Notes under the pieces: model-generated
Told to the model about the DNA's origin: nothing
The model's input: only the letters and a program-made list of their open reading frames with translations
The model's database searches: none
Shown here: piece by piece, positions 1,912 to 17,155 of the stretch
How positions within the stretch are numbered: the stretch's first letter is position 1
Layout of the letters: each line of letters opens with the position of its first letter
Program-made: the position numbers and the translations under genes
Source: Lachnospiraceae bacterium
Lineage (GTDB): Bacteria > Bacillota > Clostridia > Lachnospirales > Lachnospiraceae
DNA length: 64,000 nucleotides
Assembly (NCBI GenBank): GCA_910574865.1
Contig: CAJTDN010000016.1
Location: 1 to 64,000 of the forward strand
Direction: 5' to 3'

Positions 1912-3585
1912 TCATCCAAAAGAGCGGAGGACGGACACGAACAAGCGGTTGTTAAGAAGGGACAAATCTGCCAGAAGCGCGTATTTTTTCTCTTCAATCT
2001 GTCGCAATGCCGCTGCCACGGTGTCCTCCAAGGTTTCTTCGTCTGCTTTGTCGCACACCTTGAATTCCAGGATGAGGCCGTCGTCCTCGTCTTTGTTCCT
2101 TGGTTCCAGCATCACGTCGTAACGGCCGAAGCCGCTTTCCCGGTTCGAGGTGACGATGTAGCGGCCTCGTAAATCAACCAATAATCCGAGAACGAAACCG
2201 TGGTAAAACCTTTCGGGGGTGCGGCGGGACGGTTTTTTTCCCGAATCAAAGTAGCTGAAAAGTTCCGCTGCCATGTCATTCATGAAAACGTTCATGGCAT
2301 TGAGGTCTCCCAAAAGCATTGCTTCCACGAAGTCGTTGTAATCTTCATCCGCACGGTTGAACCATCCTTGCACCATGGCGTTAAACATCCGCAACACCTC
2401 GTAATTGGTAAGGGTCAGTTCATACATTGTTTTCTTGTCAAATTCCGACCGTTCCGGGTGTTCGTAGCCCAGCACTTTCAAATAGCCGCCGGCCAGGAGC
2501 AGGCTCCAGATTGCGGATTCCTCACCATCAAGCTGGTTGTAGACGACTTGTTCGTCAATCGGTGTCTTGATGGTTCCTCCTTGTAACAATGTCTCAAATT
2601 TTCCTTTGATTTGACGGCTGCCCTCACGTAACAATTTCCCTACCAGGCTGTTGGAGCTTGTGTTGGCCCAATAGGTGTCATATTTGCCCGTATCCAAGAA
2701 ATTCACGATGGACCATGGGTTATAAATGTCAGAATGCGTTCCAAAAATAAAGCCGTCGTACCACCGTTTTACTTCTTCTTTTTCCGAAGCCATGTCGTTT
2801 TCCTCAAGCGCGGCAAACACCTCTTCCTCCGTAAAACCGAATGAGGTCGCGTAACTGTCCGAGGTGGTCGTCACCACCTTGAGGTTATTCAGACCGGAAA
2901 AGATGGACTCCTTGCTGACCCGCGTGATGCCGGTCATGATGGCGCGCTCCAGCCACGGGTTGGTCTTGAAGGCGGCGTTGAACATGCTTTTGGTAAATGC
3001 CGCCAGTTCCTGCCAGTAACCGTTCACGTAGGCCTCCTGCATGGGCGTGTCATACTCATCCAAAAGGATGATGACTTTCCTGCCATAGTAACGGTATAAA
3101 TAGTTGGAAAGATAATGGAGGGCCATCGTCGCGTCCGTATCGTCCATGTTTACCGTTATGCGTTTGAAAAAGTCAAGATCTTCTTTTTCCATGGAATCGT
3201 CTTTTAAAAGGAACGTGTATTTCGTGTATAATTTGGCAATCATCTGACAAATCTTTTTACGTGTATTGGCGTAATTTGTTTCTTTTATGTTGGCAAAGGA
3301 TAGGCTGATGACCGGGTACGTCCCTTGCAATTTTTGGTAATCCTCGTCCTCCCAGATGGCGAGCCCCTGGAACAAGTCGCCCCGTTTTGCATAATCCATG
3401 GAGAAAAACTGTTCCACCATGCTCATGGTCAAGGTCTTGCCGAAACGGCGCGGGCGCGTAATCAGCGTGACGGTATCGCCGTTGTCCCACCATTCTTTAA
3501 TAAAGGACGTTTTGTCAATATAAAAATAATTTCTTTCTATTAAGGTGCTAAAATCCTGCACTCCAATCGCGACTGTTTTTCCCAT
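1912..3585 (-). CDS. AAA-ATPase_like / PD-(D/E)XK nuclease-like protein (DUF1703 family), copy 1, altered C-terminus
   Basis: 557 residues. The N-terminal half is an AAA-ATPase_like domain with a P-loop-like RPRRFGKTLTMSM (about 44-56) and Walker B VIILLDEYDTPM. The C-terminal part is PD-(D/E)XK nuclease-like (GFGRYDVMLEPRNKDEDDG, then LILEFKV). The family's function is unsettled. It is almost identical to copy 2 at 15452-17155 except at the end: copy 2 finishes with a conserved RCYGFAFEGNKVLIG-type tail, while this copy switches after EEKKYA to about 20 unrelated residues and stops. The tail was lost through a rearrangement near 1965-1975. The ATG has AAGGAGG upstream. Confidence 0.88.
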   Translation of the reverse strand: MGKTVAIGVQDFSTLIERNYFYIDKTSFIKEWWDNGDTVTLITRPRRFGKTLTMSMVEQFFSMDYAKRGDLFQGLAIWEDEDYQKLQGTYPVISLSFANIKETNYANTRKKICQMIAKLYTKYTFLLKDDSMEKEDLDFFKRITVNMDDTDATMALHYLSNYLYRYYGRKVIILLDEYDTPMQEAYVNGYWQELAAFTKSMFNAAFKTNPWLERAIMTGITRVSKESIFSGLNNLKVVTTTSDSYATSFGFTEEEVFAALEENDMASEKEEVKRWYDGFIFGTHSDIYNPWSIVNFLDTGKYDTYWANTSSNSLVGKLLREGSRQIKGKFETLLQGGTIKTPIDEQVVYNQLDGEESAIWSLLLAGGYLKVLGYEHPERSEFDKKTMYELTLTNYEVLRMFNAMVQGWFNRADEDYNDFVEAMLLGDLNAMNVFMNDMAAELFSYFDSGKKPSRRTPERFYHGFVLGLLVDLRGRYIVTSNRESGFGRYDVMLEPRNKDEDDGLILEFKVCDKADEETLEDTVAAALRQIEEKKYALLADLSLLNNRLFVSVLRSFG

Positions 3586-3743
3586 AGTGTCCTCCTTGTA
3601 GGGATGGATTGTTTATTTCCGCGAGCAACGAGCCAAAGTCATGCCCCAGGGCACATTCTCTTGCCGCAAGCGGCAATTCACCTTGTGCTTGCATGACCTT
3701 GGCGACTGCTGCGGGGTATTCCACTGCGGCTTTTCTGACTTAC

Positions 3744-3772
3744 AGTATATCAAGAAACAAGAAGTTTGACAA
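3744..3772 (-). promoter_or_regulatory. Sigma-A-type promoter of DUF1703 copy 1
   Basis: On the minus strand TTGTCA (-35), a 17-bp spacer and TATACT (-10) lie about 160 bp before the start codon. The same promoter and about 60 bp around it precede copy 2 (17257-17285), so the duplication includes the promoter. The untranslated leaders between promoter and start codon differ. Confidence 0.7.
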
Positions 3773-3928
3773 TGTTTTTCATGCGGGAATCGGCAGCCGG
3801 GTGATGCATCGGCCAGGCTTATGTGCATCCTCCGTGCTAATCACCATGTTGATTGGCACGGGGCTGAACAGTAACGTATGGTAAAATATTTCCATAGGAA
3901 GAAATTTTTTACCAAGGAGGAAGCGATT

Positions 3929-4549
3929 ATGGAAAAAAGACAAGTGTATGGCTATGTCCGTGTGTCGGGGCGCGATCAGAACGAGGCGCGCCAGATGGCG
4001 GCGTTGTCAGAATACGAGATCCCGACGGATCGGATTTTTACGGACAAGCAGAGCGGGAAAAATTTTGAACGTCCGGCGTATCAGGAATTGATTAAAAAAC
4101 TGAGGTCGGGGGATTTGATGGTCGTGCATAGCATTGACCGGCTGGGGCGAAATTATGAGGAAATCCTGCAGCAGTGGCGGATTATCACGAAAGAAATTCA
4201 TGCCGACATCCGGGTTTTAGACATGCCGTTACTGGACACGAGCGTCCGCCATGACCTGACGGGTACGCTGATTGCGGACATCGTGCTCCAGCTTTTGTCC
4301 TATGTGGCGGAAAATGAGCGGGAGAATATCAGGAAACGGCAGGAGGAAGGAATCCGGGAGGCAAAGGCACGGGGAGTTAAGTTCGGGCGCAGGCCAATGG
4401 AGTGGACGGAGGCATTTGAAAGGCAGGCGGAAATGTGGAGGAAAGGGGAAATTTCAGGAAGGGGCGCGGCCAGGAACCTGGGAATTTCCCATCAGACATT
4501 CATGCGGAAAATGAAAACCATGTCCGTTTACCAAGCGGAGGGAATGTAG
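3929..4549 (+). CDS. Small serine recombinase (resolvase/DNA-invertase type)
   Basis: 206 residues, the size of Hin/Gin-type invertases and Tn3-type resolvases rather than large serine integrases. The N-terminal catalytic domain begins VYGYVRVSGRDQNEARQ, with the nucleophile Ser in YVRVS, and continues with DKQSGKNFERPAYQEL and VVHSIDRLGRN, in the expected order. The C-terminus has a helix-turn-helix (SGRGAARNLGISHQTFMRKM). The start at 3929 is chosen for its AAGGAGG ribosome site; the frame extends 17 codons further without support. Two 26-bp palindromes with crossover-site geometry lie 90-240 bp downstream, making a site-specific DNA switch upstream of csrA-flagellin a real possibility. A house-keeping resolvase remains the alternative. 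Confidence 0.9.
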   Translation: MEKRQVYGYVRVSGRDQNEARQMAALSEYEIPTDRIFTDKQSGKNFERPAYQELIKKLRSGDLMVVHSIDRLGRNYEEILQQWRIITKEIHADIRVLDMPLLDTSVRHDLTGTLIADIVLQLLSYVAENERENIRKRQEEGIREAKARGVKFGRRPMEWTEAFERQAEMWRKGEISGRGAARNLGISHQTFMRKMKTMSVYQAEGM

Positions 4550-4638
4550 TACTAGAGGGGCGATACGCAAGCCTCATGGGGAAAATGAATGCCGGGAATA
4601 CGGCGCACAAAGCGCACGAGATGAATGAAATAAAAAAC

Positions 4639-4664
4639 GGTCCAAAAAGTATACTTTTTGAACC
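4639..4664. promoter_or_regulatory. Candidate serine-recombinase crossover site, left
   Basis: A 26-bp near-perfect palindrome made of half-sites GGTCCAAAAAGT and, on the other strand, GGTTCAAAAAGT around a central AT. The 12+2+12 arrangement matches hix/gix-type sites. All four half-sites of this and the partner site at 4764 fit GGTYCNNAAAGT. A repressor operator, or a terminator stem for the recombinase gene, are alternatives. Confidence 0.5.
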
Positions 4665-4711
4665 GCGCCAATCATTTCCATTTTTTAATGTTTTCTAGCT
4701 TACAAATCATA

Positions 4712-4738
4712 TTATCGGCAAAAATCCTTTGAAATTAA
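4712..4738 (-). promoter_or_regulatory. Sigma-D (sigma-28)-like promoter pointing away from csrA
   Basis: On the minus strand TTAATTTC is followed by exactly 11 bases and GCCGATAA. The -10 matches the flagellar sigma-28 consensus at every base, and the spacing equals the E. coli TAAAGTTT-N11-GCCGATAA arrangement. As it lies, it fires leftward, antisense to the recombinase 3' end, where I see no gene for it to drive. It sits between the two palindromes at 4639 and 4764. Confidence 0.5.
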
Positions 4739-4763
4739 GTCGTTATTGCAAAAAAAATTTACT

Positions 4764-4789
4764 GGTTCTTAAAGTATACTTTGCGGACC
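4764..4789. promoter_or_regulatory. Candidate serine-recombinase crossover site, right
   Basis: A second 26-bp palindrome: half-sites GGTTCTTAAAGT and, on the other strand, GGTCCGCAAAGT around a central AT, centred 125 bp from the left site. The outer GGTYC and inner AAAGT are constant while positions 6-7 vary, as expected for a protein contacting both ends of each half-site. By the C/T position the two sites are in inverted relative orientation. Confidence 0.5.
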
Positions 4790-4829
4790 ATTGACAAGCA
4801 AAATATGAGGAAATAGGGAGGTTTCTAAT

Positions 4830-5324
4830 ATGCTTTCATTACAGATGAAGTCAGGGGATTATGTCACCATAGGGAATCAGGTGATTGTACAAGTGTTTAA
4901 GGAGTCGGGGCCGCAGTTTCGTGTTTCCATCAAAGCGCCGAAGGAGGTTCCCATTGTGCGTGGAAAGGTACTGGAGCGGGATGGCGAGCAGCGGCCGGAG
5001 GGGTTGTTGGATCAGAAACCGAAACGTTCCCCATCGGATAAGAAGCATTATGCGCAGTACCTGCAAAAGGTGGAAAAGAGGCAGGAAACTTACCGAAGCG
5101 GGCAGGAGATTTGCGCGGGGATTTTGCATCAGTTGGGCGAGATACTGGATAACCCGGAGCACAAATTGAAGCGGCTGGAACTGGAACTTATGCGGACGCA
5201 GATGCGGGAACTGGCCGATATCTGGGAAAGCCTGAACGAAGGAATCATGAATAACGGGATTGTGAGTGGCAAAGTCGTGAATGGCGGAGCCGGTGAAAGA
5301 GCCGCGCAGAGAAAGAACGCGTAA
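4830..5324 (+). CDS. csrA: CsrA-family RNA-binding translational regulator with a long C-terminal extension
   Basis: Residues 1-60 match CsrA throughout: MLSLQMKSGDYVTIG, then VIVQVFKESGPQFRVSIKAP and KEVPIVRGKVLER correspond to the MLxLxRKxGExIxIG, VRLGIxAPxxVxVxRxE pattern. CsrA binds GGA motifs in mRNA leaders and, in Bacillus, represses flagellin (hag) translation until FliW removes it. Normal CsrA is 60-80 residues; this protein is 164, with a charged, helical, coiled-coil-like tail (KKHYAQYLQKVEKRQETYR, later KLKRLELELMRTQMRELAD) of unknown role. It lies just upstream of flagellin, which supports the assignment. The ribosome site is GGGAGG. No fliW is seen in the window. Confidence 0.88.
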   Translation: MLSLQMKSGDYVTIGNQVIVQVFKESGPQFRVSIKAPKEVPIVRGKVLERDGEQRPEGLLDQKPKRSPSDKKHYAQYLQKVEKRQETYRSGQEICAGILHQLGEILDNPEHKLKRLELELMRTQMRELADIWESLNEGIMNNGIVSGKVVNGGAGERAAQRKNA

Positions 5325-5325
5325 C

Positions 5326-5430
5326 ATGCAAATGGAGCGGAGAGCGGCTAAAAGGACATGGAGGTTTCAGACGGAAAGGGGCAATAAGGGCACGATATGG
5401 AAGGTGCCGGCATTAAAGGAAGATACTTAA
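5326..5430 (+). CDS. Possible 34-residue basic peptide between csrA and flagellin
   Basis: An ATG lies one base after the csrA stop codon and opens a 34-codon frame (MQMERRAAKRTWRF then QTERGNKGTIWKVPALKEDT). It has no ribosome site of its own, so it would depend on coupling to csrA. Its stop codon overlaps the possible flagellin promoter. I recognise no family; it may be chance. Confidence 0.2.
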   Translation: MQMERRAAKRTWRFQTERGNKGTIWKVPALKEDT

Positions 5431-5453
5431 AGTATGTGGGTTTCACCCGGTAT
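5428..5453 (+). promoter_or_regulatory. Sigma-D-like promoter of the flagellin gene
   Basis: TAAAGTAT, a 10-base gap and CCCGGTAT resemble the flagellar consensus TAAA-N15-GCCGATAT, with two -10 mismatches and a spacer one base short. It lies about 140 bp before the flagellin start, so transcription from it would give a leader of about 130 nt. Confidence 0.4.
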
Positions 5454-5590
5454 CGCGAGCCGGTTGAAATAAATTTGCGTCAGATGGTTAGGACATGAAG
5501 TGCCATGGCGGTCAAAACCAGGGGCGTGGGAAACAAAGTGCCAAGCAGGAAGCGGAAGCACTCTAAACACAAATTCAAGGAGGTAGAATC
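5454..5590 (+). promoter_or_regulatory. Flagellin mRNA leader with GGA motifs, candidate CsrA target
   Basis: The leader carries several GGA or AGGA motifs (TTAGGACA near 5489, CAGGAAGCGGAAGC near 5549-5562) and a strong ribosome site AAGGAGG just before the flagellin ATG. In Bacillus CsrA blocks hag translation by binding one GGA motif at the ribosome site and one upstream. The encoded CsrA neighbour makes the same arrangement likely here. Confidence 0.45.
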
Positions 5591-7273
5591 ATGAGAATTC
5601 AACACAATATTGCGGCATTAAACTCTTATAGGAACTTATCAAACAATAACAGCGCGGTTTCCAAGAACCTGGAGAAACTGTCCTCCGGTTACAGAATCAA
5701 TCGTGCGGGCGATGACGCTGCCGGATTGGCCATTTCTGAGAAAATGCGTGCGCAGATTACCGGTTTGAAGACGGCTCAGAAGAACGCAAACGACGGTATT
5801 TCTCTCGTGCAGACGGCAGAAGGCGCGTTGACGGAAGTTCACTCCATGCTGAATCGTATGGTGGAATTGGCTGACCAGTCCGCAAATGGAACCTATCAGG
5901 ACGAAGTGGACCGTGAGAACCTGCAGAAAGAAGTGAAGTCTCTGCAGGAGGAAATTAACCGTATCGCGGACAGCACGAACTTCAACGGAATCAACCTGTT
6001 GGACGGTTCCTTGTCTTCCACGGGCGGAGCGACCAAGGTGACGATTAATGGCGTGCCGAGCAACAAGTCGGAAGGCGCAAAAGGCGTGTTTAAAAATCAA
6101 ACGCCATTGAATGCAAATAATGAGGTGTTTGAAGAGGGCGACAAATTGGATTTCACAGTTGCCTTAAAGGACGGAACATCGCATACAATTACCTTGAAAG
6201 CGGTGAAAGATGCGGATAACAAGGTTTGGTTGGAAGGAAACAGTGGACAGAGGTATAAGATTGCTAACGCCACGACTGGAGCAACTATAAAGGAAATTGA
6301 TAATGCAATCTTGACGGAGCTGACTAAGACGAATGTGGCGAAAGAGTATAATATCACGTCCGATGATGCTGGAACATTCACATTCACGGCTATTGACGAG
6401 GGAACGATGACACCGGAGATTAAAGCGGTGGATGCGGATTGGACGATTGGAGCGACAAGAAGTAATGTACAGATGGGTGTTACCATTACGACCGCGCCGA
6501 TGGACACTGGTCGTGAAATCAAAGCCGATGATTTGACGTTGTACAATGGTGAAAACTATGAAGACGCTGTGTTTACCATCAACGGGCATAAATTTGTGGT
6601 TGCGACCGGTGGTTTGGCTGGCGTTGGCTTGGGCGCCAGCGGCACGGATATGAATGCGGCTGCAGGACTGGGGTCAGATGTTACGATTTTGGTTGCCGAC
6701 AAAGATGGAAACAAGGGCTTGACATCAGCCGATGCGAACTTTAAGCAAAATATTGCCAAGATAGCCGAGATTACCGGGCTGAAGGTAACGGATGCGATTA
6801 CGGAAGCAGGAGGAAACAAGGGACCGTCTGCGGGACAAGGTATCCGTATCAGCAGGAATCCAGACAACAACGGCGGTGGTCTGGAATTACAGATTGGCGA
6901 CACGTCCGATTCGTTCAACAAGATGCGCGTGTCCGTAAGCGACATGCACACGAAGGCGATGGGAATCAGTGATGTCGACATCAGTACCCAGCAGGGAGCG
7001 TCTGACGCGGTTGCCAGAATCAAGGATGCCATCAACTATGTATCCTCCGCCCGTGGTGATTTGGGAGCACTTCAGAACCGTCTGGAGCACACGATTAACA
7101 ACCTGAGCGTGACGGCGGAGAACATGACCGCTGCCGAGAGCCGGATTCGTGACGTGGATATGGCCGAGGAAATGATGGCTTACACGAAGAACAACATCCT
7201 TGTGCAGGCGGCTCAGGCCATGCTGGCACAGGCAAATCAGATTCCTCAGGGCGTATTGCAGCTTCTTCAGTAA
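5591..7273 (+). CDS. hag: Flagellin, filament subunit with a large variable central domain
   Basis: 560 residues. The conserved N-terminal D0/D1 region ([36 protein letters not shown], about 1-165) and C-terminal D1/D0 region (about 455-560, ending [17 protein letters not shown] and VLQLLQ) form the coiled core of the filament and include the TLR5-type segment. The middle, about 170-450, is rich in Thr, Asn and Asp, variable in this family and exposed on the filament surface. The following glycosyltransferase and aminotransferase genes suggest it carries glycans. The protein is exported by the flagellar apparatus and has no signal peptide. A strong terminator follows. Confidence 0.97.
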
Positions 7274-7294
7274 GTGAATGCTACGTTCTGGTCA

Positions 7295-7362
7295 CATGGA
7301 AATATGCCGCTTTGCGGCTGTGGCTGGCGCAATACTCACGGCAGATAAAATCTGTCGTGAGT
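7295..7362 (+). repeat. Copy of the leader sequence found upstream of DUF1703 copy 3
   Basis: GGAAATATGCCGCTTTGCGG and the following GGCTGGCGC, ATACTCACGGCAGAT and CGTGAGTATA occur both here and at about 20312-20385. The second half forms a hairpin (ATACTCACGGCAGAT with ATCTGTCGTGAGTAT). No DUF1703 coding sequence follows here, so this is either a relic or a dispersed repeat. Confidence 0.6.
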
Positions 7363-7420
7363 ATAAACATAAACAAAAGCCGAGACAGATATGTCCGCCT
7401 CGGCTTTTGTTTATGCTTAT
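7363..7420 (+). terminator. Flagellin transcription terminator
   Basis: A 22-bp stem with one mismatch (7363-7384 with 7399-7420; core AACAAAAGCCGAG / CTCGGCTTTTGTT) and a 14-nt loop. Its descending arm carries the run TTTTGTTT. It is located 90 bp after the flagellin stop. Confidence 0.75.
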
Positions 7421-7469
7421 GCTTAAGCGCAAGGATGGAATATCGTTGGGAAAGGCGGATGTATGTGGT

Positions 7470-9710
7470 ATGGCAAAAAAGAAATTGGTTCGGCCGTTGT
7501 TGTCGATAGGGATTATCTTTAAAAATGAGATTCGGTGTTTGGAGCGTTGCCTTGCCTCGCTTGCTCCTTTGCGGGAAAAAGTTCCTTGTGAGTTAATCAT
7601 GGCGGATACCGGTTCAGATGACGGAAGCCGGGAGGTTGCCGCCCGTTATGCGGATGTTTTATTTGATTTCCCATGGATGAATGATTTTGCGGCGGCAAGG
7701 AACGCAGTGCTGGAAAAGGCAATAGGAAAATGGTATTTAAGCATAGACGCGGACGAGTGGCTGGATAAGGACGTGTCGGAATTGGCCGGTTTCTTTTATA
7801 CATCTTATGCGGAAAGCGCGGAAATCTGTTCGCTGACCGTTCGTAATTATTACCTTTCGGATTCGGATTCGGAGTATGCGGACATCCAGGGGCTTCGGCT
7901 GGTACGGCGCATGCCCTGGACACGTTTTGAGGGAAGTATTCATGAAAGGTTGGAATTGCCAGAGGGACGTGGATGGCACATTACGGTTCTCAGTAAAACA
8001 GTGCTGCACCATGACGGATACGTGTGCATGAATGAAGGACGCGGGGAAGATAAGGTAGAACGAAACCTGACGCTTTTGAGAAACGAATTGGAGAAAAAAC
8101 CGAAGGATTTGACGCTCTTGCTCCAATACATAGAGAGTGGCAAGAGCGCGCCGGATTATCAGGATATGTTGGAGAAAGCGGTAAGACTGGTAAAACAAAA
8201 GAACCGCCAGTGGAATTACGAAGGCCCGGTGATTTTTCGCCATGCCGTGATGGACGCATACAATCATAATCTTTCCAAATTGGACGAGAGGATTGCGTGC
8301 TCGCGCGAGTGGTTTCCAGATTCGTTTTTTACGCGTATTGACGTGGAATACCTTGCCTTTGGAGACAGTTGGCAGAAAAGCGATTATGTGGAATGCATAG
8401 TGAGGGGAGAACGTTACCTCCAGGCAATCGAGGATTATCGCGGCAATCGGGGAGAGAGGGTTACGCTGATGAGCAGCGCCTTGATGTTTTCGTCCGTCCA
8501 TGACGAGCAGCAGGTGCGGGTTTACATGTCGCAGGCCTTGGCCGAAGAAGGCGAACATTTAAAAGCGTTGAAAGTCCTGGAAGGCATTGGGGGACAATTA
8601 ACGGATCAGACGCATGTGGGACATTTGCGTTTCGCGTTGTCACGGATACAGTCGGAGGGCGGGTGCGATACCTCGCCTGTAGTAAGACAGGTTTTTGAAA
8701 GTTGTAATTCGGACAAGACGTCGACATCGAGGGCGGGTTCTTCGCCAGGGGTGGTTACGGATTCTGGTTCTGAACAAGAAAGTATGGGTGAAAAAAGCCG
8801 GGGCGAACAATTTTGGAATGCATTCGAGCGGGAAAGTATTCAGATGTTTACAAAAAAATATCGCGAAAAAGAGCGGGAATCAGAAAAGTATTGCCGACCG
8901 GCGTATACCTTGTTCCTTCCGCTTGCGGACGCGTGTGACCTGGGACGTGCCGCCGCGTTACTTGAAACGAAAGATTTGGGCGAAATAGAGAGGCTCACTT
9001 CCAAGATAAAGGATTGGGCAAGGTTTCCGGCGGATGTCTTGTTCCATGCGCTGACATGTGGATTGGGATTTCCGGTTGAGGATTTGTCTTTGAATTCGGA
9101 GAAAATGGACAAGATGGTTGAAACGCTCATTGCCGGGCATGACAACATGGAACTGGCCAAACTTGCGAAAGGAGTGCTGCAAGGAAACCAATCGGGTATT
9201 TCAAGGAAGTATCAGCAGATTGTGTGGGGGCAGCGGTTTGCCTTTGCCATATTGAACGCGTTTGACTGGAAGGGAGATGGCGACGGCCTGGCGGTCGTGC
9301 GTTATTTTGCACGGGCGGAAAAAGAATTTCTGGAAACAGTATATAGCGTGGAGGCAATGAAAGAAGAAAATTTCATGCTTTTACAAAGCGAACATCGTTT
9401 TGGCCGCCGTTGCGCGGATGCGTTTGAAACGTTGGACGCGGGTGATTTTACGGGATATGTAAAAAAACTTCGACAAGCCCTCGGCGACAGCCCGGAAACG
9501 AGGTACGTGGCGGAATATTTGTTGAACCATACCCCGCAGCTTCAAGAAGTTCAAAGACGGCGGCGAGAAAACGCATCGCCGGAACTTCTGGCGCTTGCCC
9601 GGCAGGTAAAGGCGGTTTTGGAGAATTACGCGCCAGACGACCCGGCGGTGGCGGCGTTGAAAGAAAGCGGGGCGTATCAAAAGGTGGCGTGGCTAATGGA
9701 AGAGGACTAG
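7470..9710 (+). CDS. Family 2 glycosyltransferase with long C-terminal helical region, probable flagellin glycosyltransferase
   Basis: 746 residues from the ATG at 7470. A GT2 (GT-A fold) domain fills the first 250 residues: LSIGIIFKNEIRCLERCL, ELIMADTGSDDGSREVA, and the metal-binding DxD-like SIDADEWLD. The remaining 500 residues are helical and repeat-like (possibly TPR), containing a low-complexity Ser/Gly linker near residue 440. The frame is open 64 codons further upstream, but that part lies in the terminator and repeat, so it is not used. It follows flagellin directly and overlaps the style of Clostridial flagellin glycosylation loci. Acceptor and sugar are unknown. Confidence 0.85.
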   Translation: MAKKKLVRPLLSIGIIFKNEIRCLERCLASLAPLREKVPCELIMADTGSDDGSREVAARYADVLFDFPWMNDFAAARNAVLEKAIGKWYLSIDADEWLDKDVSELAGFFYTSYAESAEICSLTVRNYYLSDSDSEYADIQGLRLVRRMPWTRFEGSIHERLELPEGRGWHITVLSKTVLHHDGYVCMNEGRGEDKVERNLTLLRNELEKKPKDLTLLLQYIESGKSAPDYQDMLEKAVRLVKQKNRQWNYEGPVIFRHAVMDAYNHNLSKLDERIACSREWFPDSFFTRIDVEYLAFGDSWQKSDYVECIVRGERYLQAIEDYRGNRGERVTLMSSALMFSSVHDEQQVRVYMSQALAEEGEHLKALKVLEGIGGQLTDQTHVGHLRFALSRIQSEGGCDTSPVVRQVFESCNSDKTSTSRAGSSPGVVTDSGSEQESMGEKSRGEQFWNAFERESIQMFTKKYREKERESEKYCRPAYTLFLPLADACDLGRAAALLETKDLGEIERLTSKIKDWARFPADVLFHALTCGLGFPVEDLSLNSEKMDKMVETLIAGHDNMELAKLAKGVLQGNQSGISRKYQQIVWGQRFAFAILNAFDWKGDGDGLAVVRYFARAEKEFLETVYSVEAMKEENFMLLQSEHRFGRRCADAFETLDAGDFTGYVKKLRQALGDSPETRYVAEYLLNHTPQLQEVQRRRRENASPELLALARQVKAVLENYAPDDPAVAALKESGAYQKVAWLMEED

Positions 9711-9726
9711 AAAGAGAAGGTGAAAG

Positions 9727-11298
9727 ATGCCGAAGATAACACTTTATACGCAGGTTCATAATGCGGGAGAATATTTAGAACCTTGTATTTCCAGCGTCCT
9801 TGCACAAACATTTTCCGATTTTGAGTACATTATTGTGGATAATGCATCCACGGATGGGTCACGGGAACTTTTGGAACATTTCGCGGCAGTGGATTCCCGT
9901 ATCAGACTCATTAAAAACTCGGAAAATCAGATGAGAATCAGAGTCGGAATATTGAAAGAATATGCAAAAGGGGATTTTTACGCGGTGCTTGACCATGATG
10001 ATTGGCTAGAACCGAAATTTTTTGAGCGGCTGCTTGCCTTTGCGGAAGAAAATAATTTGGACATTGGATGTGCCGGGACTTGCATGCATGACATGACGAC
10101 CGGGGGAGTGGGATATCGAAGTACGCCGCGCCCCTTTGTATTGCCCAGAACAAAGTTTGCGGAAGGTTATCCTTATTACCACACTTTTTTGCGCACAAAT
10201 TGGGGGAAAGTAATCCGTACCAGATTACTTTTTGACATGGACGGATCAAAAATTCCACCCCTTTCTTATGGGGGGGATACGCTTCAACTGTTCCATATAC
10301 TTAGAAAGGCGGAGCGTATTGGCGTGGATAGTGCGGTGCTGCATCATTATCGCATCCATCCTGAATCACAATCCTACCAATATTCACCAAAGCGTTTTGA
10401 CGCGGACGTTTGTCTTTATGAGGACGCGGTGGACTTCCTTGCGGGATTTGGTTCGGTTAGTTGTGAGAACCTTCTGTTTATACGGCGTGTCTATGCGAAT
10501 GCGTTGGTGGACACTTCCGGGGTGATTGAGAAATCTTCTCTTGAACCAGAGGGAAAACTGCGGGAATATAGAAGGATTTTGGAACATCCCATTACGCGAA
10601 GCGCCTATGCGCAGCCGCATGAGGAAATACGAAACAGTGGTCGAATACTTTTAAACCGGGTCGTGCGGGCGGGGCGGCAGCTTGAAAATGGTAATGCGGA
10701 ATTAGCTGTCATTATACGGAACATGGCACCGAATTGCTGCAGTGGAATGACGGAGGAAGATATCGCCTTTTTGGCAAGGGAGCCGAGAATGTCGGAGGCA
10801 TTATGGAATGATGACCGAACGGCGTTGGCAGACATGCTGCTCGTGCTTGTGAAAGAAAGAGTATATGACACTCGGCCTGACTTGTGCAAGATTTTGCATG
10901 ACATTTTGCCCGAAGATTCTCTTTTGCATATGGTAAAAGACATACATTTCTTAAAAAGACATTCAGAACTTTGTCGGCAGATTCTGTGGGGAAAGCGGGC
11001 AGAAGCGTTGGATGAGATGACGGGCCGCCTTTTATATGGGCGGAAACGGCACATGGAAGAATTGTATCTTCAATTGTACCTTTCCCTGGCGGCGCTGGAA
11101 GGGCAGGAGACGGCGTTTGTCTTTGGGAAGATACGTCTGGCAGAGTGGAATCTGCGCGCGGGACGTTTGGATGATTGCCGGGAATTGCTGGACGAGTTGG
11201 AAGAAATGGGGGTCGGGGAGCATGGGGAAGTTATAGGTTTGCGTGAAAAGCTGAAAGCGAAGGAGGTTCGGCAGAAGTGCGGGAAAAAATATTTGTAA
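9727..11298 (+). CDS. Family 2 glycosyltransferase, second of the flagellin locus
   Basis: 523 residues. The N-terminal GT2 domain shows ITLYTQVHNAGEYLEPCI, YIIVDNASTDGSRELL and the DxD-type motif VLDHDDWLEP near residue 95. From about residue 270 to the end it is helical and without a recognised domain, so, like its upstream neighbour 16 bp away, it is a GT-A enzyme with an extra module that could bind the flagellin acceptor. Its 3' end overlaps the aminotransferase start by 22 bp, indicating one operon. Ribosome site GAGAAGG. Confidence 0.85.
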   Translation: MPKITLYTQVHNAGEYLEPCISSVLAQTFSDFEYIIVDNASTDGSRELLEHFAAVDSRIRLIKNSENQMRIRVGILKEYAKGDFYAVLDHDDWLEPKFFERLLAFAEENNLDIGCAGTCMHDMTTGGVGYRSTPRPFVLPRTKFAEGYPYYHTFLRTNWGKVIRTRLLFDMDGSKIPPLSYGGDTLQLFHILRKAERIGVDSAVLHHYRIHPESQSYQYSPKRFDADVCLYEDAVDFLAGFGSVSCENLLFIRRVYANALVDTSGVIEKSSLEPEGKLREYRRILEHPITRSAYAQPHEEIRNSGRILLNRVVRAGRQLENGNAELAVIIRNMAPNCCSGMTEEDIAFLAREPRMSEALWNDDRTALADMLLVLVKERVYDTRPDLCKILHDILPEDSLLHMVKDIHFLKRHSELCRQILWGKRAEALDEMTGRLLYGRKRHMEELYLQLYLSLAALEGQETAFVFGKIRLAEWNLRAGRLDDCRELLDELEEMGVGEHGEVIGLREKLKAKEVRQKCGKKYL

Positions 11299-13559: not shown

Positions 13560-14735
13560 ATGGAAAAGAATAAAGGAGTCGTTGTCTCGGTAGGGGCGGG
13601 GACTTTACAATATGATTTTATTGAACGATTGAAAAATCGTGGATATGTGGTGGCGGCGTTTGGAAAAGGTAAAAACTCAAAAGAAGCAATTAGACTGTGT
13701 GATTTTTTTAAAGAGATTGATACGGCGGATGCTGACGGGGCAATCAACTGGCTGGATGGTTTAAATATGTCGATAACCGCAATTGGGTCTTATGCGGGAG
13801 GCGTTGCCATAAGAACACTGCAGATTCTTGCAAATTACTATAATTTGATTACGGCAATTCCCGAACAATTGATTATAGGGATGAATAAAGCAGAACAGCA
13901 GAGGATGTATGTAAAATACGGTCTGTCTGACATATTGACATATTCATGCGATGAAATAACGCGGGATTCGAATTTGCTGCATGCAGAGGAAAACTATATA
14001 ATAAAGCCGGCAATTGGGAGGGGGAGTAATGGCGTTGAGATTGTAACTGGAAAAGAAATTATAAAAAAATTAGGGGATAAGCAATTAGGGTCGGGAGACA
14101 TTATACAGACCATGATGTGTGGTACGGAATATAGAATGCTGCTAATGGTACAAGGCGGAAAAATAAAATTACTCGCGCCGGTTCGTCGAACCTCGTTTAA
14201 GAAAACTTTTTTCCTGGGACGTCTGGAAGTGTCTTTTTCAGATTATGACAGGCTCAGAGAACATGCGCAAAAACTCATAGAGAAACTTCAAATAAGAAAT
14301 ACAATTATAAAGTATGATGTTATAGTAGATGATGAGACAATAAATCTTATAGAAATGGATATTGGCGTTGGCGGCGGTGTGTATTTTAAGAAATATATTT
14401 CCAAGGTTTTAAATACGGATTTAATGGAGAAATATATTGATTTAATATGTGATAGAGAAATCCCGGAAATGAAGTTTGAAAAAAAGAATCTGGTAATGGA
14501 TTATGTGTATAATGAAAGTTGCTTTCCAGTAGAATATGATTTGTTGAATTGTAAAAAGAAAATTGAAAAAATATGTGGGAAATCCGTATTGATTCCAAAC
14601 GAGTTGCACCCGGAAAAAAAGGGAGGGTTTTATTCTAATGCGGACTTTATTTTTACAGTTATTTATGATAGAAACGGGAGTGAACCAGATAAGTTGAACG
14701 ATTATGTGAATTATAATTTGCTAAGAAAGTGTTAA
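13560..14735 (+). CDS. ATP-grasp family protein, second of a pair
   Basis: 391 residues from the ATG at 13560, which has GTGAGGG at a good distance; the longer frame from 13347 overlaps the preceding gene and is not used. It shows NYIIKPAIGRGSNGVEIV (ATP-binding loop), LGSGDIIQTMMCGTEYRML and the metal-binding INLIEMDIGVGGGVYF. The family couples ATP hydrolysis to amide, ester or similar bond formation. It is AT-rich like its neighbours and only distantly like the first ATP-grasp protein, so the pair may act in successive steps rather than being a simple duplication. Substrates are unknown. Confidence 0.78.
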   Translation: MEKNKGVVVSVGAGTLQYDFIERLKNRGYVVAAFGKGKNSKEAIRLCDFFKEIDTADADGAINWLDGLNMSITAIGSYAGGVAIRTLQILANYYNLITAIPEQLIIGMNKAEQQRMYVKYGLSDILTYSCDEITRDSNLLHAEENYIIKPAIGRGSNGVEIVTGKEIIKKLGDKQLGSGDIIQTMMCGTEYRMLLMVQGGKIKLLAPVRRTSFKKTFFLGRLEVSFSDYDRLREHAQKLIEKLQIRNTIIKYDVIVDDETINLIEMDIGVGGGVYFKKYISKVLNTDLMEKYIDLICDREIPEMKFEKKNLVMDYVYNESCFPVEYDLLNCKKKIEKICGKSVLIPNELHPEKKGGFYSNADFIFTVIYDRNGSEPDKLNDYVNYNLLRKC

Positions 14736-14762
14736 TGTACAAAAAGTGGAAAGGAAACGGAC

Positions 14763-15290
14763 ATGAAAAAAACTCAACTGATAGAAAAGGAACGGAAGTA
14801 TTTACTAAAATCAGTTACAAAGAAAGAAAACTGGGAAAAGGAATTTATTATTTATCAATGGTTTGAAAAAGTGAACGGACTAGAAAGTACTAAATTAAAA
14901 CTTATTTTTGATTTGATAAATCTTAAGCAAAGCATTGTCAGGGTAACAAAAACAAGAATAGATGATATTACTTGTCATAAAGAAGTGGAATATTTAAATA
15001 TAAAAGATATAGATTTTGAACAATGTATGGGCGTCGGGTTTGTTGCAAAGAGAAGAGCGATTTTAAACAAAGTATTTTTAGATCGTTTTTATAGGTCTAA
15101 TAAAACATGTGAATATTTATTAGAAATAGAGGATGACGTTGAAATTGCAAACTTAAGAAAACTAGGAGTGGAAATCGATAAGGAGGTTTCAAAGAAGCCA
15201 GAGTACCTAAATGCAAATATGTGTACCCCTTTTCAAAATGAAGATTATCGAATTCTTTGCTTCTTACTGCAAACAATATGTAACTTTTAA
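14763..15290 (+). CDS. CYTH-like domain protein
   Basis: 175 residues. The N-terminus IEKERKYLL contains the ExExK signature that defines CYTH enzymes (triphosphate tunnel metalloenzymes such as thiamine triphosphatase and class IV adenylate cyclase). Later segments with alternating charged strands (QSIVRVTKTRIDD, CHKEVEYLN, YLLEIEDDVEIANLRKLG) fit the tunnel barrel, including an acidic pair in EIEDD. It is AT-rich, last in the flagellin modification operon and followed by a strong terminator. CYTH proteins hydrolyse or cyclise triphosphates; why one belongs here is unclear. The similarity is by motif only. Confidence 0.6.
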   Translation: MKKTQLIEKERKYLLKSVTKKENWEKEFIIYQWFEKVNGLESTKLKLIFDLINLKQSIVRVTKTRIDDITCHKEVEYLNIKDIDFEQCMGVGFVAKRRAILNKVFLDRFYRSNKTCEYLLEIEDDVEIANLRKLGVEIDKEVSKKPEYLNANMCTPFQNEDYRILCFLLQTICNF

Positions 15291-15292
15291 AG

Positions 15293-15352
15293 AAATTTTC
15301 TGTTGTACGGTTGTGCCAAAGGGCGTCCAACCGTACAACGGAAAATTTTTTT
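15293..15352 (+). terminator. Rho-independent terminator of the flagellin modification operon
   Basis: A 21-bp stem (15293-15313 with 15328-15348; core GTTGTACGGTTG / CAACCGTACAAC) with one G:T pair and a 14-nt loop, ending in TTTTTTT. It begins two bases after the CYTH gene's stop codon and also lies downstream of the convergent DUF1703 copy 2. Confidence 0.85.
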
Positions 15353-15451
15353 GATTAAGCATAAATCTATAAGTGGCGAAGCGGGTTGGGGTTTGTCAAG
15401 TAAAGTGTGTAAATTTTTTTGATTTTTTTAGGGTTGCGAATATCCGCTGTA

Positions 15452-17155
15452 TTATGCCTTGCCGCCTATCAATACCTTGTTTCCCTCGAATGCAAATCCG
15501 TAGCAGCGGATGCGCTCTTCGGGGACTCCCCGTTTCATCAATTCTGCCGCGTATCTTTTCTCTTCAATCTGTTGCAATGCCGCCGCCACGGTGTTTTCCA
15601 ACGTTTCTTCCTTCGTCTTGTCGTGCACCTTGAATTCCAGGATGAGGCCGTCGTCTTCGTCTTTGTTCCTTGGTTCCAGCATCACGTCGTAACGTCCGAA
15701 GCCGCTTTCCCGGTTCGAGGTGACGATGTAGCGGCTTCGTAAATCAACCAATAATCCGAGGACGAAACCATGATAAAAACGTTCCGGGGTGCGGCGGGAC
15801 GGTTTCTTTCCCGAGTCAAAGTAGCTGAAGAGTTCCGATGCCATGTCATTCATGAAAACGTTCATGGCATCGAGGTCACCTTGTAACATCGCCTCCACGA
15901 AGTCGTTGTAATCTTCGTCCGCGCGGTTGAACCATCCTTGCACCATGGCGTTAAACATCCGCAGCACCTCGTAATTGGTAAGGGTCAGTTCGTACATCGT
16001 CTTTTGGTCAAATTCCAACCGCTCCGGGCGTTCATAGCTTAACACTTTCAAATAGCCGCTGGCCAGAAGCAGGCTCCAAATCGCGGACTCGTTGTCATCA
16101 AGCTGGTTATAAATGATTTGTTCGTCAATCGGTGTCCTGATAATTCCGCCTTGCAGCAACATCTCAAATTTCTCTTTGATTTTGCGGTTTCCTTCACGCA
16201 GCAATTTTCCTACCAGAGCGTTGGCGCTGGTGTTGGCCCAATAAGTGCCGTATTTTCCTTTTTTCAAAAAATTCAGGATGGACCACGGGTTGTAAATGTC
16301 AGAATGCGTTCCAAAAATAAAGCCGTCGTACCACTGTTTTACTTCTTCTTTTTCCGAAGCCATGCCATTTTCCTCAAGCGCGGCAAACACCTCTTCCTCC
16401 GTGAAGCCGAAGGCGGTGGCGTAACTGTCCGAGGTGGTTGTCACCACTTCGAGGTTGTTTAAATCGGAAAAGATGGACTCCCTGCTGACCCGCGTGATGC
16501 CGGTCATGATGGCGCGCTCCAGCCATGGGTTAGTCTTGAAGGCGGAGTTGAACATGCTCCTGGTAAATGCCACCAGCTCCTGCCAGTAACCGTTCACGTA
16601 GGCCTCCTGCATGGGCGTGTCATACTCGTCCAAAAGGATGATGACTTTCTTGCCATAGTAACGGTATAAATAGTTGGAAAGATAATGGAGGGCCATCGTC
16701 GCGTCCGTATCGTCCATGTTTACCGTTACGCGTTTGAAAAAGTCAAGATCTTCTTTTTCCATGGAATCGTCTTTTAAAAGGAACGTGTATTTCGTGTATA
16801 ATTTGGCAATCATCTGACAAATCTTTTTACGTGTATTGGCGTAATTCGTTTCTTTTATGTTGGCAAAAGACAGGCTGATGACCGGGTACGTCCCTTGCAA
16901 TTTTTGGTAATCCTCGTCCTCCCAGATGGCGAGCCCTTGGAACAAGTCGTCCCGTCTTGCGTAGTCCACGGAGAAAAATTGCTCCACCATGCTCATGGTC
17001 AGGGTCTTGCCGAAACGGCGCGGGCGGGTAATCAGCGTGACGGTATCGCCGTTGTCCCACCATTCTTTAATAAAGGACGTTTTGTCAATATAAAAATAAT
17101 TTCGTTCTATTAAGGTGCTAAAATCCTGCACTCCAATCGCGATTGTTTTTTTCAT
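15452..17155 (-). CDS. AAA-ATPase_like / PD-(D/E)XK nuclease-like protein (DUF1703 family), copy 2, full length
   Basis: 567 residues from the ATG at 17155 (GGAGG six bases upstream). It has the same domain order as copy 1: P-loop-like RPRRFGKTLTMSM, Walker B VIILLDEYDTPM, then the nuclease-like core YDVMLEPRNKDEDDG and LILEFKVHDK, and the complete conserved tail (ERIRCYGFAFEGNKVLIG). By eye it differs from copy 1 at few residues. Both lie on the minus strand in direct orientation, flanking the csrA-flagellin-glycosylation region. The longer frame up to 17266 runs into the promoter and is not used. The family's function is unsettled; abundance and duplication suggest a mobile or defence-related role, which is inference. 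Confidence 0.9.
   Translation of the reverse strand: MKKTIAIGVQDFSTLIERNYFYIDKTSFIKEWWDNGDTVTLITRPRRFGKTLTMSMVEQFFSVDYARRDDLFQGLAIWEDEDYQKLQGTYPVISLSFANIKETNYANTRKKICQMIAKLYTKYTFLLKDDSMEKEDLDFFKRVTVNMDDTDATMALHYLSNYLYRYYGKKVIILLDEYDTPMQEAYVNGYWQELVAFTRSMFNSAFKTNPWLERAIMTGITRVSRESIFSDLNNLEVVTTTSDSYATAFGFTEEEVFAALEENGMASEKEEVKQWYDGFIFGTHSDIYNPWSILNFLKKGKYGTYWANTSANALVGKLLREGNRKIKEKFEMLLQGGIIRTPIDEQIIYNQLDDNESAIWSLLLASGYLKVLSYERPERLEFDQKTMYELTLTNYEVLRMFNAMVQGWFNRADEDYNDFVEAMLQGDLDAMNVFMNDMASELFSYFDSGKKPSRRTPERFYHGFVLGLLVDLRSRYIVTSNRESGFGRYDVMLEPRNKDEDDGLILEFKVHDKTKEETLENTVAAALQQIEEKRYAAELMKRGVPEERIRCYGFAFEGNKVLIGGKA

Follow-up and report, generated by a model that had tools for sequence, protein, structure and literature searches.

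In Salmonella, the Hin/fljB-fljA system relies on a serine invertase that flips a promoter toward or away from a flagellin operon with an RNA-level regulator. The hix sites have a 26-bp geometry with a 2-bp core. The regulator of the operon, FljA, is a translational repressor of fliC, the other flagellin (PMC2652032). In the gut bacterium C. difficile, the flg switch is likewise an invertible segment ahead of flagellar genes; it comprises 154 bp upstream of the flgB operon, has 21-bp repeats, is served by the tyrosine recombinase RecV, and is likened in the discussion of that work to another that 'also lacks promoter activity' (PMC5386303). The master DNA invertase Mpi of Bacteroides, a serine recombinase, serves at least 13 switches (PMC5386303), and PhaseFinder-type analyses report further invertible intergenic regions between inverted repeats (PMC11868660). 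Finally, flagellin synthesis may also be controlled at the RNA level, as in Bacillus subtilis, where CsrA occludes the flagellin Shine-Dalgarno sequence (PMC6529632).

The locus described here belongs to a 64,000-nucleotide stretch of DNA from a Lachnospiraceae bacterium (the window), in which an invertible promoter switch had been predicted upstream of csrA and flagellin, with Hin and the C. difficile switch as precedents. The switch is Hin-like in logic and differs from the first of these precedents in how it is laid out, in the class of its promoter, in what the operon contains and in the number of cassettes. In Salmonella, hin lies inside the invertible segment, while the window recombinase is outside a segment of 99 bp; in addition, the window promoter is of the sigma-28 type, the regulator is csrA-like and precedes the flagellin, and the genome holds several cassettes, each with its own recombinase. 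The C. difficile precedent is looser, since it is a tyrosine-recombinase switch for which a lack of promoter activity is discussed (in PMC5386303), whereas the window has a serine recombinase and tyrosine enzymes are found at paralogous operons. The NCBIfam Mpi model also matches the window recombinase (45.7 bits against a cut-off of 272); nevertheless, Mpi acts on many switches, while the window site forms a single pair in its genome. As for the PhaseFinder-type regions, the segment is similarly intergenic and placed between inverted repeats, but those calls come from reads and the present one from the comparison of assemblies. No published flagellin-csrA inverton was found among the matches listed in the open-access literature.

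Sites, promoter and genes of the window locus

The features of the locus, from the recombinase to the flagellin, are the following.

3929-4549, plus strand: small serine recombinase of 206 amino acids, presumed invertase (Pfam Resolvase, PF00239, 99.6 bits, over the cut-off)
4627-4666, minus strand: site L and the T-run outside it, terminator-like for the OFF transcript (13 pairs, tail TTTTTATTTC)
4639-4664, unstranded: putative recombination site L (distal), a 12+2+12 dyad with core AT, GGTCCAAAAAGT-AT-ACTTTTTGAACC, with counterparts in loci L091 and L092
4665-4763, unstranded: putative invertible segment, the 99 bp that separate the sites, with content alignable in L091 and L092
4712-4738, minus strand: sigma-28-type promoter directed away from csrA (OFF), TTAA (4738-4735), N15, GCCGATAA (4719-4712)
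4764-4789, unstranded: putative recombination site R (proximal), a 12+2+12 dyad with core AT, GGTTCTTAAAGT-AT-ACTTTGCGGACC
4830-5324, plus strand: csrA-like gene of 164 amino acids, with a CsrA domain (residues 1-50) and a C-terminal extension (Pfam CsrA 47.1 bits, cut-off 27)
5440-5470, plus strand: hairpin in the csrA-flagellin spacer, from an alignment and from single-sequence folds of 5 of 7 sequences
5591-7273, plus strand: flagellin of 560 amino acids (Pfam Flagellin_N/C)

The two 26-bp dyads of the original prediction are thus present in inverted arrangement around 99 bp, beside a recombinase that is indeed of Hin size. The half-sites of site L pair at 11/12 positions and those of site R, which is less symmetric, at 9/12; the inner halves of the two sites differ at 2 positions and, when taken together as an inverted repeat, the sites are 83% complementary over 29 nt. 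The core of both sites, AT, has no direction of its own. A search of the 5.33-Mb genome with a degenerate version of the site, tolerating up to 3 mismatches, finds sites L and R and no others, while the reversed control pattern has no match in that genome and a scan of viral contigs with the site pattern returned none.

The sigma-28-like promoter, also anticipated to point away from csrA, is found on the minus strand, and a promoter of the same type, strand and place is observed in L091, L092 and L046. The consensus used for this comparison agrees with the one printed in PMC3720852. In-silico inversion of the segment reproduces the expected arrangement, with the -10 element at 4709-4716 facing csrA and a leader of about 107 nt. 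Inside the segment there is also a weak sigma-70-like match (9/12; plus strand, 4729-4758) that faces csrA in the present orientation.

The recombinase has the domain composition of a small serine DNA invertase of the Hin/Gin type, namely, a Resolvase-type catalytic domain and a small C-terminal helix-turn-helix whose Pfam matches (HTH_50 and HTH_8) are weak and below cut-off. The NCBIfam IS607 transposase and other resolvase-type models match the catalytic domain as well, below their cut-offs. The gene named csrA in the original prediction does encode a CsrA domain; nevertheless, its product, a divergent paralogue, continues into a long extension at the C-terminus and falls far below the NCBIfam CsrA equivalog cut-offs (32.7 bits against 73 and 26.5 against 70.1), and a better-scoring csrA (76.7 bits) is located elsewhere in the genome, on contig C11. 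Likewise, the proposal that csrA is the switched gene holds in part, as the unit consists of the csrA-like paralogue plus flagellin. Neither a sigma-28 nor a sigma-70-like site was found on the plus strand of the spacer between the two genes, so the flagellin itself is probably under control of the switch, along with the csrA-like gene. The spacer hairpin is kept in paralogues and, in L046, has a different stem sequence.

Two neighboring regions were also noted. An AAA-ATPase_like/PDDEXK_9 gene (1912-3585) is divergent from the recombinase and, directly 3′ of the flagellin, two large open reading frames (7278-11298) resemble by eye glycosyltransferases, perhaps with a role in flagellin glycosylation.

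Congeners and relatives of the recombinase

The site was searched for in 98 genomes, including that of the window, and 7 of them contain any match. Two sites each are present in three genomes: that of the window, G001 (locus L091) and G002 (locus L092), with start-to-start spacings of 125, 134 and 135 nt, respectively. Each of the other four (G004, G041, G050 and G076) has one match with 3 mismatches and was not taken to hold a switch; the stretch around the G004 match shows no match to the recombinase, the csrA-like gene or flagellin. In both L091 and L092 the order is recombinase, site, promoter, site and csrA-like gene, and the recombinase, which adjoins the same kind of site pair, is 75% identical to that of the window. 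A flagellin follows the csrA-like gene in G002, and the G001 contig ends inside the csrA-like gene. The promoter of both loci is on the same strand as in the window, that is, OFF.

The cores of the two congeners are GT on the left and AC on the right, which is the same dinucleotide read inward. Thus, recombination between these inverted sites would invert the segment and cannot excise it. The AT core of the window had been said to permit deletion as well, and this remains true in principle; nevertheless, the GT/AC cores of the congeners and of L046, which are inverted and non-palindromic, favor inversion. As a separate observation, G001 carries, at 490-2181 of L155 (contig C208), a flagellin nearly identical to that of the window (94% in its middle part), while the cassette flagellin of G002 is at 64%; this window-like copy in G001 hints at exchange between species.

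Recurrence of such site pairs was examined among relatives of the recombinase. A scan of genome contigs yielded 319 relatives, of which the best 80 were kept; 8 of these had less than 300 nt downstream and were dropped, leaving 72. Under a looser dyad test, which demands complementary cores, an inverted dyad pair is found no farther than 700 nt downstream in 29 of the 72, against 0/720 shuffles, 0/77 upstream regions and 0/65 farther regions. A stricter dyad test, with no condition on the core, finds an inverted pair within the same distance in 14 of the 72 (0/360 shuffles, 0/77 upstream and 0/65 farther regions), and the cores are complementary in 14/14. These relatives are partly non-independent, as L033, L035 and L038 have common sites, and so do L040 and L042. 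The gap between sites is 99-113 bp in 20 of the 29 relatives with a pair. The better promoter points toward the recombinase in 23/29 and forward in 6/29 (L030, L036, L039, L055, L064 and L066), as judged by a crude score without control. Among the best 80 of the 319 relatives, only L046 has csrA or flagellin in a flank of up to 4 kb, which suggests that the recombinase-site module serves many genes and that flagellin is one use of it.

These data bear on a different reading, in which the sites would be a res-like resolution or excision site, or the footprints of a mobile element that carries the recombinase. The sub-threshold matches to IS607 transposase and resolvase-type models agree with it, as does the AT core through its tolerance of deletion. 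By contrast, the window sites enclose 99 bp of promoter with the recombinase outside, the inverted cores of the congeners do not allow excision, and the gap is recurrent in the family. We therefore give hardly any credence to a resolution site or mobile element and continue with the invertible promoter.

Other serine recombinases were noted near similar elements. An inverted dyad pair lies just downstream of two of them in the window genome, G000 (L201, contig C13, at 4171 and 4338; L203, contig C34, at 4054 and 4138; coordinates oriented with the recombinase). In four congeners, serine recombinases are located between divergent flagellins: L188 of G010 (3633-5510), L190 of G007 (14174-16304), L191 of G008 (3364-9074) and L189 of G005 (3533-11111). 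The loci of G010, G007 and G008 have a sigma-28-like promoter aimed at one flagellin and site-like dyads recognized by eye, suggesting an either/or flagellin switch. An automated pair search at all four loci returned no convincing recombination-site pair; the pair that it proposed at L190 looks like a flagellin coding repeat and was rejected.

Paralogous cassettes and promoter orientation

The window genome contains two further csrA-like/flagellin operons, on contigs C2 and C11, and a segment lies ahead of each.

L151, 4849-6376: segment ahead of a paralogous csrA-like operon of the window genome
L152, 4469-6072: segment ahead of a paralogous csrA-like operon of the window genome

Both segments are of 1.5-1.6 kb, with 25-26-nt inverted repeats at their ends, a tyrosine recombinase inside (Pfam Phage_integrase) and, near the far end, a sigma-28 promoter that is directed outward. 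Two segments of this kind are found in G001, L153 and L154 (the L154 flagellin is beyond the contig), together with a paralogous cassette with other repeats, L214; similar segments in other genera (L207-L213) have repeats of the types just named or of further ones. Pfam analysis of 16 recombinase candidates, a scan that left out L209 and L213, identified 11 as Phage_integrase (L151-L154, L207, L208, L210, L211, L212, L214 and L290), 4 as Resolvase (L046, L307, L308 and L313) and 1 as neither, the single open reading frame scanned near L296 being DUF218. Unrelated recombination modules thus occupy the same place ahead of the operon.

Promoter orientation was then compared in a census of 40 hand-picked, hence not random, regions from two profile searches (392 and 391 genomes) plus 16 earlier loci. 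One of these 56, L317, was too short and was dropped. For a call, the repeat near csrA had to have 20 or more matches and be at least 85% identical, and a sigma-28 promoter had to lie no more than 120 nt from where the segment ends. Of the 55 remaining loci, a hand-picked set, the script assigned 28 to OFF and 3 to ON (L290, L307 and L313) and made no call for 24, while the control gave 0/275 shuffles. As the script considers only the best-scoring promoter per strand and dilutes repeats that are long and imperfect, the window, L092 and L289, all OFF by other readings, received no call. Another locus, L285, looks OFF by eye and was left out of the count.

Seven of the csrA loci have a serine recombinase. 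Five of them are OFF (the window, L091, L092, L046 and, by eye, L308) and two are ON (L307 and L313). The site cores are complementary in 7/7, two of them being AT/AT, and are inverted in L091, L092, L046, L308 and L313. At L307, the -35 element of the ON promoter is weak and the contig stretch ends before any flagellin, while L313 reads into a flagellin whose start is truncated by the end of the contig. In L307 (G522), two tandem csrA-like genes, at 2109 and 2272, are behind one serine-type switch, which is ON. Within a single genome, G631, the segment of L290, which is ON, matches those of L297 (136/190) and L296 (135/190), both OFF, on the opposite strand, while the stretch on the csrA side, together with the proximal repeat, matches on the same strand (78/102). 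Thus, both orientations of one element family coexist in one genome. It had been proposed to look for both orientations in related genomes, and the same kind of switch is seen OFF and ON, including the two ON loci of the serine type.

At some loci the presence of a switch is less evident. In L292-L295 and L300, csrA has a forward promoter and only short repeats or none, so the operon there may be unswitched or ON. A forward sigma-28-like promoter close to short AATAGTA-type repeats was also noted at the csrA-like genes of L291 (G469), L293 (G642), L294 (G564) and L295 (G576); these could be unswitched or further ON copies, and L293-L295 are uncounted.

The excess of OFF calls (28 against 3) may reflect a bias of the switch, selection or locked copies. 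The last option, applied to the window, would mean a real switch architecture in which this copy is locked OFF, site R having decayed and the operon being a silent relic. The 9/12 pairing of site R is in line with such decay, and so are the OFF state of all three in-genus serine copies and that of most of the called census loci. Against it, the recombinase, csrA-like and flagellin genes all have open frames and close orthologues, and three species retain the promoter motif, for which a relic would have no use. A locked relic is thus improbable, and a switch that can still be flipped is the preferred reading.

Paired dyads near the gene for a DNA-binding protein can also be operators, and the window dyads might accordingly be places where the recombinase, or another regulator, represses without any inversion. 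This general consideration is opposed by the inverted pairs with complementary cores in 14/14 cases of the strict test that lacked a core condition, by the reversed promoter at two serine-type loci, by the unrelated repeats beside tyrosine recombinases at the paralogous operons and by the two orientations found in G631. We thus consider operators to be highly improbable. In effect, the congener block, the recurrence of site pairs with the recombinase family, the two ON serine loci and the tyrosine versions all support the idea of an invertible promoter, and it is very likely that the window carries one that is OFF here and would drive the csrA-like/flagellin operon when flipped.

A further asymmetry concerns the outer repeat. 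Among 34 loci selected for having a segment, at least 6 T in 8 positions follow the distal repeat, read outward, in 22, and follow the proximal repeat, read toward csrA, in none, as is also true of site R; the T-run score is higher at the distal than at the proximal repeat in 30/34 and equal in 4/34. For random 20-mers drawn from the 400 nt around csrA, the background rate is 925/6800. The near-copies L296 and L297 are without a T-run, and the window region as a whole has no excess of terminator-like sites (2 against a shuffle mean of 2.2). This polarity fits a switch in which the outer repeat may end the OFF transcript at once, while the ON transcript reads through the proximal repeat.

The CsrA-like protein, the flagellins and a proposed mechanism

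In an alignment of 14 cassette CsrA-like proteins, R44 is invariant. The cassette protein differs from B. subtilis CsrA in being a divergent, extended paralogue that is encoded inside the switched operon. As in the CsrA-FliW-Hag homeostasis, which also involves a CsrA protein, the resident flagellin leaders have a CsrA-type site at the Shine-Dalgarno sequence. The CsrA-type motif ACANGGANG occurs twice in each of these leaders (two in G000, two in G002 and one in G001), once at -37 or -38 and once at -16. Within 60 nt of the start, CsrA-type sites occur in 5/5 resident leaders against 0/7 cassette leaders of G000-G002, although the resident genes are close relatives and amount to about 3 independent observations at most. 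Farther out, ACANGGANG is also present in cassette leaders (at -235 in the window and at -117 in L091). Two cassette leaders from other genera, L209 and L211, have a CsrA-type site at the start, so the idea of these sites as distinctive targets is not general. The leader comparison suggests that the cassette CsrA-like protein may repress the resident flagellins, in a role like that of FljA.

One resident flagellin in each of G000, G001 and G002 has a sigma-28 promoter that faces the gene directly, and no short repeats flanking the resident promoters were found in L187 or L193. The notion that resident promoters are fixed was nevertheless dropped, as that of L192 lies where a long inverted duplication ends. 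In this locus (G002), a near-perfect inverted repeat (3600-3837 and 9041-9278), common to two divergent resident flagellins, ends within the sigma-28 promoter, which is complete at only one of them; inversion between the repeats would move the promoter.

The cassette and resident flagellins of the window genome are 92-99% identical over the N-terminal 140 residues and 91-96% over the C-terminal 90, while their middle parts are at 30-60%. The middle of flagellin is its exposed part, so switching would change what the filament exposes.

Taken in order, the proposed mechanism would begin with the recombinase (3929-4549) binding both dyads as dimers, pairing them and inverting the 99-bp segment; both its action on these sites and the inversion of the window copy are what we infer from sequence comparisons. 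In the present orientation the promoter, presumably used by sigma-28, would read outward through site L, whose hairpin, along with the outside T-run, would probably terminate the OFF transcript. After inversion, it would read through site R into the csrA-like gene and the flagellin (ON), and the filament would have another variable domain. The probable target of the CsrA-like protein is flagellin mRNA, and our guess would be that it lowers the translation of resident flagellins, whose leaders carry the CsrA-type sites that cassette leaders of the same genomes lack near the start.

A broader picture can be proposed tentatively, with somewhat less than even confidence in all its parts holding jointly. 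The window bacterium and its relatives, probably gut Clostridia, would hold a set of csrA-like/flagellin cassettes, most of them silent and each controlled by a switch of its own. At a fixed place ahead of the operon, the recombination module, either serine or tyrosine with several unrelated repeats, would be exchangeable, while promoter type, polarity and operon would stay constant. In such a set, the outer repeat would be the terminator of the OFF state, and the cassette CsrA-like protein would silence resident flagellins when ON, as an analogue of FljA from another protein family.

Flagellins of gut Clostridia are prominent host antigens. If their genes sit behind flip-switches, the orientation of the DNA decides which flagellin is shown, and the presence of a flagellin gene in metagenomic data would not imply its expression; existing metagenomic reads could be used to score orientation directly. 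In addition, unrelated recombinases at one spot, together with a CsrA-based counterpart of FljA, would clearly exemplify convergent design.
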